From the NCBI RefSeq assembly GCF_013114825.1, contig NZ_JAAVLX010000013.1:62001-126000 (forward strand): a stretch of 64,000 nucleotides of DNA, read 5' to 3'. Shown here one piece after another: positions 40,068 through 44,629 of this stretch (within the stretch, counting starts at the first letter, position 1; each line of letters opens with the position of its first letter). Both the position numbers and the translations under genes were made by a program. A model generated the notes under the pieces. That model was not told where the DNA came from. It did no database searches and saw only the letters and a list, made by a program, of their open reading frames with translations. This DNA comes from Bradyrhizobium australiense (GTDB lineage Bacteria > Pseudomonadota > Alphaproteobacteria > Rhizobiales > Xanthobacteraceae).

Positions 40068-40115
40068 GGCGAAAGGGCCTAAAAACGGGTCAAAAGCGAA
40101 TGATTTGGCCACGAA

Positions 40116-40210
40116 AAGGCGAATGGCAAGTGGCGAGTAGCGAATGGGGAGCCCTGTTTGCCACTTCCATTCGCCATTCGCCATTCGCCTTCGCTACTCG
40201 CCATTCGCTT
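40116..40210. repeat. Imperfect inverted repeat of GCGAATGG/GCGAGTAG units, copy 2
   Basis: Left arm blocks GGCGAATGGCAAGTGGCG and AGTAGCGAATGG; right arm CCATTCGCCATTCGCC, TTCGCTACTCGCCATTCGC. Same vocabulary as 21246-21320 in the atp operon. It sits directly upstream of the ROK-like gene and of the rplU promoter. Confidence 0.7.
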
Positions 40211-40273
40211 TCTTTTTGAAACCAATGGGTTCCCCGCCCGTTGTCGCCAGCGAGATCCGGCAGGGCGAGGGCA

Positions 40274-41374
40274 ATGGCAGAAGACATCGTTACGAGTACC
40301 GGCATTGCCCGCCACGGCGCCACCCGCCTGCCGTCGGTCGAGGTCGACAGCTTTAATGTCGAACTGAAGGACGACGAGGGCTTTCTCGGCGACCGCGCCA
40401 GCAAGGGCGCTTTCCGCAAGATCTTGGACGACCTCCGCGCGCCGCTGAAGAAAAACGGCGACGATCCCTTGGGGAAAAAATCTGCCGGCGAGATCCCCAA
40501 GAGCGAACTCGACGAGGCACTGGTCGGCGATGATATCGAGGCCGCCGCGCTGGTGCATGGTGCGATCGAGGAGTTCGCCCAGGAGTTGGCCTATGTGACG
40601 CGGCGGTTTCTCAAGACCAAGGCGTGGGCCGATACCGAGCGCATTGTGGTCGGTGGTGGTTTCCGGCAGAGCCGGGTCGGCGAGATCGCCATCGCCCGCA
40701 CCGACATCATCCTCAAGGCTGAGGACTTCGAAGTCGATCTGTTGCCGATCCGCTTCCATCCCGATGACGCCGGCCTGATCGGCACGCTGCATCTGGCGCC
40801 GTCCTGGATCTTTGAGGGCCACGACAGCATTCTCGCGGTCGATATTGGCGGCACCAACATCCGCTGCGGCGTCGTGGAGACGCACTGGAAGAAGGCGCCC
40901 GATCTCTCCAAGGCTGACGTCTGGAGGTCCGAGCTGTGGCGGCATGCCGACGATGAGCCGACGCGCGAAGCCGCGGTCAAGCGGCTGGTGAAGATGCTGA
41001 AGGATTTGATCGCCGAGGCGGAAACCGAAGGCCTGAAACTTGCGCCCTTTATCGGCATCGCGTGTCCTGGCGTTATCGACGAGGATGGCTCGATCGAAAA
41101 GGGCGCGCAGAACCTGCCCGGCAATTGGGAGAGCAGCAAGTTCAATCTGCCGGCAAGCCTGGTGGAAGCGATCCCGCAGATCGGCGATCACGACACCGCC
41201 GTGTTGATGCACAATGACGGCGTGGTGCAGGGCCTTTCCGAAGTTCCCTTTATGCAGGACGTCGAGCGCTGGGGCGTGTTGACCATCGGCACCGGGCTCG
41301 GCAATGCGCGCTTCACCAATAGGCGGAAGGACAACGGCAAGGACGAGAAGAAGGCGAAAAAGAGCCGGGATTGA
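40274..41374 (+). CDS. ROK-type sugar-kinase-like protein with permuted motif order
   Basis: 366 residues. ROK/glucokinase motifs are present but start in the middle. The usual C-terminal elements come first (RIVVGGG at 123-129; FHPDDAGLIGTLHLA at 161-175). The normally N-terminal phosphate loop follows (ILAVDIGGTNIRCGVVE at 186-202), then GIACPGV (261-267), LMHNDGVVQG (311-320, Asp 315 at the catalytic-base position) and GTGLGNARF (339-347), and finally a Lys-rich tail. No CxCGxxGC zinc motif is visible. The order equals a circular permutation of the ROK fold. Activity as kinase is plausible but not shown. ATG chosen after AGGGCGAGGG. Confidence 0.85.
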   Translation: MAEDIVTSTGIARHGATRLPSVEVDSFNVELKDDEGFLGDRASKGAFRKILDDLRAPLKKNGDDPLGKKSAGEIPKSELDEALVGDDIEAAALVHGAIEEFAQELAYVTRRFLKTKAWADTERIVVGGGFRQSRVGEIAIARTDIILKAEDFEVDLLPIRFHPDDAGLIGTLHLAPSWIFEGHDSILAVDIGGTNIRCGVVETHWKKAPDLSKADVWRSELWRHADDEPTREAAVKRLVKMLKDLIAEAETEGLKLAPFIGIACPGVIDEDGSIEKGAQNLPGNWESSKFNLPASLVEAIPQIGDHDTAVLMHNDGVVQGLSEVPFMQDVERWGVLTIGTGLGNARFTNRRKDNGKDEKKAKKSRD

Positions 41375-41680: not shown

Positions 41681-41770
41681 GGAGAGGTGGCAGAGTGGTT
41701 GAATGCACCGCACTCGAAATGCGGCATAGGTGCAAGCCTATCGGGGGTTCGAATCCCTCCCTCTCCGCCA
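41681..41770 (+). tRNA. tRNA-Ser (anticodon CGA)
   Basis: 90 nucleotides. Acceptor stem GGAGAGG/CCTCTCC, discriminator G, CCA encoded. The anticodon stem CCGCA/TGCGG encloses CTCGAAA, so the anticodon is CGA, reading UCG. The long variable arm is typical of tRNA-Ser, and GGTTCGAATCC forms the T arm. The gene's 3' side borders a transposase remnant, suggesting use as an integration site. Confidence 0.97.
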
Positions 41771-41807: not shown

Positions 41808-42425
41808 CTAAGAGATAGATGACAACCTCGTGCCGAACGGGTTGTCGAGGGGCTGCAAGGTTTTCTGCTTCAGGTCGAAGTATCCCAGATCATAGTGCAT
41901 GAAGCTGACGAGCCAAATGCCCTCGTCGACCTCCTTGATGCAGAGCTTTTGGCCGGCCAGGACGGTTGAGATGTTGGTCCTCTTGCGATGGCGGCAGAGG
42001 CGTCCGCAGGCGGTAACAAGAACCTCGCGATCGTGGAACGGATAGGTCAGCCCCGGCAGGCCGGCATAGGAGCGCACCGAGGCGGTGTAGAGCTCGGCAG
42101 GACACTTCATGTCGAGGGCCTCATGCGGACGTTCGGCATTGAGCTCGCGGACGAAGCGTCGAAGCGTTCCTGCTGTTGCAAGCCATTGGCGCCCGGCGGC
42201 CGGGTCGTTTCCTTTTTTGAGGGTGAGGTGCATGCGCTCGTGGCGTCCGTTCTGTTGCGGGCGGCCCGACTTGATGAGTTCGATCGCAATCCCCAGGCGA
42301 AGCCACCACACCGAGAGCTTGGAGAGGTTGAACAAGGCGTTGGGACTGCGAACGGCGCCGTTGTCGGAGCGAATGGCTAGCGGCAGGCCGCGCTGGTGGA
42401 ACAGGCGTTCAAAGGCTGCAACCAT
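41808..42425 (-). pseudogene. IS481-type transposase remnant (C-terminal part of DDE integrase)
   Basis: About 205 residues match the C-terminal half of an integrase-core transposase: GLPLAIRSDNGA (second catalytic Asp), the segment IKSGRPQQNGRHERMHLTLK (catalytic Glu), FVRELNAERPHEALDMKCP, and the tail YPFHDREVLVTACGRLCRHRK plus LQPLDNPFGTRLS. The N-terminal HTH and the first catalytic Asp are missing; upstream of residue WMNLRPLVGMV the frame continues into unrelated sequence. It lies 38 bases after tRNA-Ser. No terminal inverted repeats were found. Confidence 0.85.
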
Positions 42426-42525
42426 GCCAACTAACGGTCTAAGGTTCATCCAAACTCCCGACTCACCTCGGGGGAATTTCGGGAATCGAGCTGCAGCGCC
42501 GGCTTGCGGCATCGGGATCGAAGTG

Positions 42526-42640
42526 GCCCGCATCTTCATGACCGCAAACGACGACGAGTCCACCCGCAATGGGGTGATGGACGCCGGTGCATCGCCTATT
42601 TGCGCAAGCCGTTCGAAGGGAATGAGTGCATCTTGGTGCC
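42526..42640 (+). pseudogene. Receiver-domain C-terminal fragment with one-base deletion
   Basis: Frame 1 reads IFMTANDDESTRNGVMDAG. After loss of one base in the Gly codon, the next frame reads CIAYLRKPFEGNECIL. Joined, this is the alpha4-beta5 end of a response-regulator receiver (T of MTA, K of RKPF). No beginning of the domain is found upstream. It abuts the IS remnant. Confidence 0.7.
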
Positions 42641-42696: not shown

Positions 42697-44226
42697 TTAT
42701 GGGCAGGAATGGCGCTGCCCGTCATAGCCCTTGTAAGTTCCGGATGCTGGATCGTAGGTCCGATTGTGCCGGCAGCCGTAGCCATGGTCTGCACTCGTGG
42801 CGCGCCCGCGCGGTTTTGGTATTGGAGTTTTTTCAAGTTTAATTGCCGATTTGCTGTTGTCTGGCGCCACGTCCGATTGCTTTGCGGTCCGGGCGGGCTT
42901 CACGTAGCCATGGTCTGCATTCATGGCGCGCCTGCGCGGCTTTGGTAATGGAACTGTTTCAAGTTTAATTGCCGGTTTGCTGCTGTCTGGCGCCGCGTCC
43001 GGTTGGTTTGCGGTCCGGGCGGGCTTCACGAAGGCGTCATTGTTTGCCCAGGCGGGCAAGGAGATACCGGACCTCTCTTCCACAGCAGCGGGTTTCTGTC
43101 GCCGCGCCTTCGCGAGTTCGATTGCCAGCGCCTCGGCCCTGTCGTGCTCCAGCTGCAGAGACTGCCGCAGCTCCGCCGCCTCGCTCTCGGCCGCCTGCTT
43201 GAGCTGCGCGGTCTCGTCGCCCCTCTTGCTCGACAGCGCCACCTGCGTCTCGAGGGCCTGCCGCGCCTTCGCCAGTTCGGTTGCCAGCGCCTCGGCCCTG
43301 TCGTGCTCCTGCTGCAGAGACTGCCGCAGTTCCGCCGTCTCGCTCTCGGCCGCCTGTTTGAGCTGCGCCGTCTCGTCGCCCCTCTTGCTCGACAGCGCCA
43401 CCTGCGTCTCGACGGCCTCCCGCGCCTTCGCCAGTTCGGTTGCCAGCGCCTCGGCCCTGTCGTGCTCCTGCTGCAGAGACTGCCGCAGTTCCGCGGTCTC
43501 GCTCTCGGCCGCCTGCTGCTTGAGCTGCGCCGTCTCGTCGCCCCTCTTGCTCGACAGCGCCACCTGCGTCTCGACGGCCTCCCGCGCCTTCGCGAGTTCG
43601 GTTGCCAGCGCCTCGGCCCTGTCGTGCTCCTGCTGCAGAGACTGCCGCAGTTCCGCCGTCTCGCTCTCGGCCGCCTGCTTGAGTTGCGCCGTCTCGTCGC
43701 CCCTCTTGCTCGACAGCGCCACCTGCGTCTCGACGGCCAGCCGCGCCTTCGCCAGTTCGGTTGCCAGCGCGGCACTGCGAGCGCGTTCTTCTCCGAGCGC
43801 GTGCTGCACCGTGCTGGCCGCCAGCTCTTTTCCTGCAGCGGCGGCATCTCGCGCGAGGGCGGCCATCGTTTCGCGCTCCTGGCCGAGCGGTTGTGCGGCG
43901 GGCGCGGCCTCCGCTTCCAGCTTCGGATTAAGCCCATCGACGCCGCGGCGGGCCTCGGCAGGCTCCTTCGCCAAAACCTCTTGACGTGCCCCGTTCTCCG
44001 AAGGTTGTCGCGCCTCCGGCGTCGGCAGGGCCTGCCTGACGAGCGCAGCTACGCCGATGAGCGCCGCCGCGACCAGGGTTGTGGCGATCAAGAAAAAGGG
44101 AAAGAAGCGATGGCGGCGCGCACCGGCCTCAGGCGACCAGTGATCGACATCATCAGTCCCAAACGTCCTATCCTCGATGAGGAAGACGTTTTCATTCCTC
44201 GGTGCGGTCTCAATCGTATGGGGCAT
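42697..44226 (-). CDS. Membrane-anchored coiled-coil repeat protein with BA14K-like C-terminus
   Basis: About 509 residues. Cytoplasmic N-terminus, one transmembrane segment at about 42-65 (FFLIATTLVAAALIGVAAL), then a long Ala/Glu-rich coiled coil with four near-identical 53-54-residue repeats (ELAKAR-AVETQVALSSKRGDE-type). Two copies of an HGYVKPARTAK-type block follow in the Pro-rich tail, and finally YDPASGTYKGYDGQRHSCP, the BA14K-type end (YDPxSGTYxGYDGxRxxC). BA14K proteins are cell-surface/periplasmic and lectin-like in Brucella. Function here unknown. ATG at 44226 chosen (GGGTGG upstream); a GTG three codons earlier is in frame. Confidence 0.85.
   Translation of the reverse strand: MPHTIETAPRNENVFLIEDRTFGTDDVDHWSPEAGARRHRFFPFFLIATTLVAAALIGVAALVRQALPTPEARQPSENGARQEVLAKEPAEARRGVDGLNPKLEAEAAPAAQPLGQERETMAALARDAAAAGKELAASTVQHALGEERARSAALATELAKARLAVETQVALSSKRGDETAQLKQAAESETAELRQSLQQEHDRAEALATELAKAREAVETQVALSSKRGDETAQLKQQAAESETAELRQSLQQEHDRAEALATELAKAREAVETQVALSSKRGDETAQLKQAAESETAELRQSLQQEHDRAEALATELAKARQALETQVALSSKRGDETAQLKQAAESEAAELRQSLQLEHDRAEALAIELAKARRQKPAAVEERSGISLPAWANNDAFVKPARTANQPDAAPDSSKPAIKLETVPLPKPRRRAMNADHGYVKPARTAKQSDVAPDNSKSAIKLEKTPIPKPRGRATSADHGYGCRHNRTYDPASGTYKGYDGQRHSCP
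43102..43770 (-). repeat. Tandem 159/162-bp repeats inside the coiled-coil gene
   Basis: Four nearly identical units in tandem, lengths 159, 162, 159 and 159 bp in reading direction, plus a 30-base partial fifth. Unit 2 has one extra Gln codon. The high DNA identity between copies points to recent expansion or gene conversion. Repeat number could change by slippage without breaking the frame. Confidence 0.9.
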
Positions 44227-44629
44227 GTAAACCACCCCTATTGTGTCGGGTTATCGGGCCATTTCTCTTCGCCAATACAGGAAGCGTATTCCCACCCGTG
44301 GCGGGCCTCAAGTTACTTTTGGTGAGGGAAATCACCATCGTCCAGGTCCGCAAGATGTCCTGACCGCGTTGAGCCGCATGTCCCACTGACATGAGCAGAA
44401 CGGGACACGAGAGTCGGCTTTGGGTTCATTTTCGGAAATCGGCCCGCGAAGTCGCGAGGGCCGCTTTTCCCAAGAGCCGACATTCTTAGCTTGGCCGTGG
44501 GATTTATCCGCGCGCGCGTACTGGTCTCGAAATTCCGCCGCGGTGATGTAAGGCGGTTCGTTCGCTACAGCGCTCCTTGGGGGCGCACTTCGCTCACCGC
44601 TATTCCGATCAATCCTACCCCCTGTGGTA
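44227..44629. other. Upstream region of the coiled-coil gene, no gene seen
   Basis: About 400 bases that hold the promoter region of the coiled-coil gene and otherwise no convincing open frame or repeat. A GC-alternating stretch CGCGCGCG lies near 44512. Confidence 0.5.

Follow-up and report, generated by a model that had tools for sequence, protein, structure and literature searches.

The ROK sugar kinases (PF00480, comprising NanK, the kinase domain of GNE/MNK represented by structure 2yhw, and the ROK glucokinases) carry the motifs DxGGT, CPG, ND, GTGxG, GGG and DAGLxG, and along the chain the motifs of the N-terminal lobe precede those of the C-terminal lobe. A gene of Bradyrhizobium australiense raises the question of whether a protein with the same motifs, but with its two parts exchanged, is a natural circular permutation of this fold and, if so, what it would do in the cell. 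The gene lies in a stretch of 64,000 nucleotides (hereafter the window) taken from a genome assembly of 7.44 Mb in 46 contigs. It had been singled out in a reading of the sequence alone (the sequence-only reading), and the open reading frame then proposed is indeed present (Table 1). The six motifs that were placed in its product, RIVVGGG (123-129), DDAGLIG (164-170), DIGGTNIRCG (190-199), GIACPGV (261-267), HNDGVVQG (313-320) and GTGLGNARF (339-347), all occur at those residues.

Table 1. Features of the permuted ROK gene, its product and its upstream region, in window coordinates.
Feature	Position	Strand	Basis
EcfG-type promoter candidate TGAAAC-N16-CGTT, one mismatch to GGAAC-N16/17-CGTT	40217..40242	+	Upstream motif search and alignment
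Imperfect inverted repeat AAACCAATGGGTTCC within the promoter, between its putative -35 and -10 boxes; possible operator	40219..40233		Upstream alignment, by eye
Gene of the putative permuted ROK-family protein	40274..41374	+	Open reading frame, ATG start, 366 aa
Residues 14-42, likely equivalent of the GExGH/zinc-loop segment, without GExGH or cysteines	40313..40399	+	Alignment A2, motif counts, approximate hhalign register, model
Residues 43-182, putative equivalent of the ROK C-terminal lobe (GGG 127-129, DDAGLIG 164-170)	40400..40819	+	hhalign ROK columns 203-301; Pfam 179-292 of 294 in relatives; NanK profile 219-286
Residues 183-351, putative equivalent of the ROK N-terminal lobe (DIGGTNIR, CPG, QNLPGNW, HND, GTGLGN)	40820..41326	+	Pfam ROK 2-146; 2yhw Z 11.5; model
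Residues 352-366, a tail rich in Lys and Asp that varies among relatives; low model confidence	41327..41371	+	Mean pLDDT 38 (351-360) and 33 (361-366)

The window protein scores 31.9 bits against Pfam ROK (gathering cut-off 22.9), with residues 187-354 corresponding to positions 2-146 of the 294 in the model, while the NCBIfam NanK (ROK) model is matched by an earlier part of the chain (residues 106-175, positions 219-286 of 288). The same two-part match is seen, weakly, with E. coli NanK (2aa4; E 0.013), and the PF02685 glucokinase model gave 11.1 bits, below its cut-off of 22.1. The sequence-only reading had described the motif order as permuted and the ATP/phosphate motifs as retained. Both points were borne out, and shown not to be accidental, by alignments of 29 family sequences (A2 and A3, the window protein plus 28 of 30 references, L131 and L141 being left out; a further alignment, A1, joined the window protein to 48 of 80 close loci). 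The order GGG, DxGG, CPG, HND, GTGLGN was found in 29/29 sequences, and so were DxGG[TS], GTGxG, GGG and ND. Moreover, GGG, D164, G170, CPG, HND and GTGLGN were invariant, as was QNLPG together with the W after it, an invariance that distinguishes the family from the ROK sugar kinases. Because the protein reaches the Pfam score and keeps the nucleotide motifs, but departs from the family in chain order (N-lobe and C-lobe motifs swapped in all 29 sequences) and in the missing zinc motif, it is best regarded as a permuted ROK variant and not as a regular member.

The argument for a circular permutation stands on family profiles and not on any single sequence. A 20-sequence family profile (20 of 94 kept) was compared by hhalign with 31 ordinary ROK proteins; L001 (duplicate of L082), L098 (an ordinary ROK protein), L099 (a fragment), L092 (whose frame stops at query residue 332) and L093 (divided between two frames) had been dropped from the family set. 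In native order, the profile gave two non-collinear matches, of residues 187-350 to ROK columns 6-145 and of residues 72-177 to columns 203-301. A rotation scan peaked at a cut near residue 184, where a single match scored 100.5 against 71.6 for the native order. Controls in which the C half was joined to a column-shuffled N half had a mean of 72.5 (sd 1.9, maximum 86.6 in 100 shuffles), and a reversed N half gave 71.5. When repeated with 29 sequences, the comparison yielded 82.2 rotated versus 54.1 native against 30 ROK references (L098 out; maximum of 60 shuffles 57.7), and 98.4 versus 76.4 against five short-loop ROK references (maximum of 60 shuffles 80.8). The family profile is therefore collinear with ROK only once its halves are swapped, and above the shuffled controls, which sustains the permutation originally proposed.

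It had also been anticipated that the first ~180 residues correspond to the ROK C-lobe, with the warning, given beforehand, that a failure of this alignment would refute the idea. The N half profile alone does align to the C-lobe, at ROK columns 203-301, 205-258 or 186-303 according to the reference set, and no match better than E 0.19 was obtained with anything other than the ROK C-lobe. Since a distant resemblance exists between the two lobes in this superfamily, it matters that the N half matched the C-lobe and not the N-lobe. Among Pfam families, ROK was the one matched by most lone N halves (12 of 29, with E no higher than 1 and a best value of 0.0014). Four of the ten N halves looked at in detail matched it, at positions 179-292 (two of them), 191-292 and 196-292 of 294, all below the 22.9-bit cut-off, and the other six gave no match. 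N halves of relatives also matched the NanK and BglK models.

With single sequences, an own narrow ROK HMM scored the de-permuted chain above the native one in five of nine proteins and not in the remaining four, the window protein included (19.5 de-permuted, 23.3 native), and two of the nine exceeded all 200 shuffled-half controls. Rotation of four single sequences never gained more than 0.3 bits at any cut, and the Pfam match was not lengthened on either of two de-permuted proteins. A PDB search with the profile of the 29 N halves gave nothing significant, and NanK 2aa4 (E 0.54) was outranked there by an unrelated chain (E 0.22).

An AlphaFold model computed from 49 sequences (the window protein and 48 close relatives) reached a pLDDT of 77.3 and a pTM of 0.76; a prediction from the single sequence (pLDDT 36.3) was set aside. 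In the model, residues 182-347 superpose on the N-terminal lobe of human MNK (N-acetylmannosamine kinase, 2yhw), with Z 11.5 and an rmsd of 2.0 for 131 residues, and on many other ROK proteins, so that the predicted N-lobe fold is shared with the ROK sugar kinases as well as with the ROK-type regulators (1z05, 5f7q; Mlc). The N half is modelled with mean pLDDT values of 79-96 in ten-residue blocks from 31 to 180, and its elements follow the order helix-helix-helix-strand(GGG)-helix-strand-helix(DDAGLIG), which we take to be that of the ROK C-lobe. Residues 1-21 (holding H14), 275-289 (the QNLPGNW loop) and 349-366 have values under 50. Structure aligners are sequential, hence they cannot display a swapped half, and with ROK chains it is mostly the C half that they align; the model supports the C half directly and the N half only as a confidently predicted fold.

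Regarding the point where the chain was opened, the sequence-only reading had set it after the GTGxG strand, at the place of a lost zinc-binding segment. The first part of this proposal holds; the second needs refinement, since the opening appears to precede the GExGH/zinc-loop segment, which seems to have been kept, without its ligands, as the N-terminus (residues ~14-42). This stretch, with the consensus HGAxxLPxVxVDxYNxELxDxxGFxGDrAS, likely occupies the former zinc/GExGH place, the register being approximate and interrupted by gaps in hhalign. In the 29 family sequences, H14, F37, G39 and D40 are invariant and an N half never has more than one cysteine. The CxCGxxGC zinc motif and GExGH were each found in 0/29 of them and each in 29/31 ordinary ROK proteins. 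Such a loss could mean that sugar binding was lost as well. The invariant H14 and D40, which are additions relative to the ROK sugar kinases, would be candidates for new sugar contacts.

As counted from match tables, near-full-length relatives occur in 81 of 149 genomes of the family, 31 of 249 of the order, 16 of 385 of the class and 22 of 398 of the phylum (five of these outside the class), in addition to 204 of 72,556 plasmid records in which the match spans 80% of the query or more. Identity reaches down to 44%, and the best 80 relatives in the species-genome collection, at 79-95% identity, are nearly all from Bradyrhizobium or close kin. The remaining table matches correspond to fragments, to an interrupted or partial copy, or to ordinary ROK proteins matching only the C half, and no high-identity relative in ordinary order was present in the class, phylum, family or order tables. 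A chance fusion in one genome is ruled out by these relatives. A second permuted family was considered for partial ROK matches in four other genomes and rejected, since on reading these proved to be ROK proteins in the ordinary order, with an additional domain in front like that of ROK regulators. Differences by codon position among 86 close loci (0.108, 0.070 and 0.340) follow the pattern of a protein that would be under selection. The gene is not kept intact everywhere: in two of the 16 class genomes (L092 and L093) the frame is interrupted, ending early in one and split in the other. Some genome-table matches have a stop inside the matched range, mostly past the gene end among the class loci read.

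The region upstream of the gene bears on its control. The sequence GGAAC-N16/17-CGTT is printed as the EcfG motif for Rhizobium etli (PMC3892343, in the part available), and the available part of a Sphingopyxis study (PMC7083833) gives the same motif and names GCAAC as a second common -35 box. In 14 of 30 distant loci, the exact motif was found in the 300 bases that precede codon 14, 13 of these sites lying 95-134 bases before that codon, and a site with at most one mismatch was found in 24 of 30. Shuffled upstream regions, which keep base composition only, gave 0.17% and 5.3%, respectively, and the reverse strand of the distant loci 1/30 and 6/30. Since the 30 distant and 91 near loci are interrelated, the counts cannot be treated as independent: the 14 exact cases include two R. 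leguminosarum and two Sinorhizobium. The six distant loci devoid of a site at up to one mismatch are L084, L086 and L142, within the class, and L146-L148 (family f184), outside it. The absence in the latter three is expected if EcfG is confined to Alphaproteobacteria, as stated in the available text of PMC3892343.

Among the 91 close loci, the window copy included, the exact GGAAC form was found in none; the box takes the form GAAAC or GCAAC, and G[GCA]AAC-N16/17-CGTT is present in 74 of the 91. The window promoter itself is off consensus, with GAAAC. At the genome scale, the exact motif showed no enrichment (92 and 97 occurrences versus 85 and 87 in the control), and TGAAAC-N16-CGTT occurred 12 and 4 times versus 3 and 4. 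NepR is encoded in the same genome (E 4.3e-15), and its locus (L155) holds a single candidate EcfG-like site in minus-strand orientation. The consistent placement of the motif upstream of many relatives, which is what would link this family to the PhyR-NepR-EcfG regulon, suggests that the permuted ROK gene may be under EcfG general stress control. As to other elements of this region, the AAACCAATGGGTTCC repeat is well kept in many Bradyrhizobium loci and close relatives, and just upstream of the promoter (40115-40211) stands a cluster of GGCGAATGG/CCATTCGCC inverted repeats, found in some but not all close relatives, which looks like a short mobile palindromic element.

What the protein might do under such control can be approached from the gene content of its genome. 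No other ROK match at E 0.001 was detected there, and no PF02685 glucokinase either (4 of 14 control genomes matched that family). Hexokinase PF00349 was likewise not matched, but neither was it in the controls, and this result was given no weight. OtsA is present. In B. diazoefficiens, according to the available part of PMC8092242, EcfG controls the OtsA/OtsB pathway, whose substrates are UDP-glucose and glucose-6-phosphate. Nine plasmid regions carrying relatives were viewed, six of them annotated. In two of the six, from R. leguminosarum WSM1325 and Roseateles sp. XES5 (a record that carries the flag UNVERIFIED_ORG), otsB is the divergent neighbour. Its place is taken by a "haloacid dehalogenase" in R. 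leguminosarum CB782 and by an osmoprotectant NAGGN peptidase in S. meliloti, and the two remaining regions have different genes at this position. By eye, otsB does not adjoin the gene in the window, nor was it adjacent in Phyllobacterium, S. meliloti or Bradyrhizobium sp. 195. A stress-induced hexose kinase supplying glucose-6-phosphate would be the most economical reading of these data. Directly downstream of the gene in the window is a tRNA-Ser (CGA; 41681-41770), followed on the minus strand by an open reading frame that by eye reads like an IS-type integrase (41808-42569) and by a 512-aa frame with several near-identical repeats (ELRQSLQQEHDRAEALATELAKAR...; 42697-44235).

Three other explanations deserve consideration. 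One is that an ROK N-lobe simply follows an unrelated or broadly ASKHA-like domain in which GGG and DDAGLIG arose by chance. It could draw on the lone N halves falling below the Pfam cut-off and being weak in the PDB sequence search, on the small gain of single sequences upon rotation, and on the sequential structure aligners reporting mainly the C half for ROK chains. Nevertheless, the N half profile matches the ROK C-lobe region only, running through GGG to the C-terminus, the rotated profile is collinear and well above its shuffled controls, and no Pfam family is matched by more N halves than ROK; we regard such a fusion as very improbable.

The other two accept the permutation and concern function. 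ROK proteins include non-catalytic regulators, and the permuted protein might have lost sugar kinase activity and serve the stress response as a sensor or partner protein that binds ATP and a ligand. The missing zinc motif and GExGH, found in nearly all of the ordinary ROK proteins compared, would fit this possibility, as would the stress-type promoter of the relatives and the strongly charged tail. Yet HND, DxGG, GTGLGN and GGG are kept in every family sequence aligned, seemingly more than binding alone needs, and Pfam at E up to 1 gave no DNA-binding domain in the window protein, which differs from the ROK-type regulators in this lack of an N-terminal HTH and in its swapped order. A non-catalytic role is, on balance, unlikely. 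Somewhat less so, though still on the doubtful side, is an active permuted kinase that acts not on glucose but on another substrate, such as an N-acetylhexosamine or a sugar used as an osmolyte: N-acetylmannosamine kinases are the top structural and N-half profile matches, and no substrate residues have been assigned. Against it, the structural matches reflect the shared N-lobe, and the genome has a gap, in the form of absent other ROK or PF02685 glucokinases, that this protein could fill with respect to glucose.

The explanation that we favour, and consider probable, is that the gene encodes a zinc-less ROK sugar kinase that is circularly permuted and is induced under general stress. A few residues would join the old C-terminus (following DDAGLIG...LAPSW) to the old N-terminus, at the start of the DIGGTNIR strand, and the chain would have been opened anew between the strand of GTGxG and what was once the GExGH/zinc segment. 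The two-lobed fold of a normal ROK kinase is the most likely one for the product. From what is generally known of ROK kinases, DIGGTNIR, GTGLGN and GGG would hold ATP, QNLPGNW and N314 would line the sugar site and D315 would be the catalytic base, with family-specific residues (H14 and D40 being candidates) replacing the sugar contacts of GExGH and the zinc loop. In Alphaproteobacteria, the EcfG general stress sigma factor probably switches the gene on, and the likeliest job of the enzyme would be to phosphorylate glucose or a similar hexose, for instance providing glucose-6-phosphate to OtsA for trehalose synthesis. More tentatively, and as a possibility that we consider less likely than not, the permutation may have arisen once, spread through Alphaproteobacteria and become a zinc-free, general-stress-induced glucokinase that feeds trehalose synthesis and is, in some species including this one, the only recognisable glucokinase.

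No report of a permuted ROK protein was found in open-licence PMC papers, nor of an ROK family protein or glucokinase tied to EcfG, RpoE2 or rhizobial stress. The words ROK and glucokinase are absent from the available main text of three EcfG papers (PMC3892343, PMC6599016, PMC7083833), from that of PMC8092242 and from the main text of an S. meliloti promoter map (PMC3616915). A further paper that mentions both circular permutation and the ROK family deals with clustering. In the available parts of the nearest papers, "circularly permuted" and "ROK family" describe two unrelated genes of a table (PMC7701253), permutation is named only as a general criterion for grouping kinases (PMC1079889), the glucokinase mentioned is an ADP-dependent one compared with 2-dehydro-3-deoxygluconokinase (PMC2213659), and the ROK family member SMa2004 of rhizobia is named without a link to stress (PMC11387232). 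What appears to be new here is the putative EcfG promoter motif in front of the permuted ROK relatives. Public plasmid records name these relatives "ROK family protein", "glucokinase" or "hypothetical protein", labels that hide the permutation.

A two-lobed ATPase whose natural permutation has persisted in many genera is a test of which connections the ASKHA/ROK fold truly requires, and the present family suggests that ROK proteins can apparently do without the zinc loop that typifies them. If the protein is truly a stress-induced glucokinase, it would offer a direct target for understanding how rhizobia make trehalose under stress.
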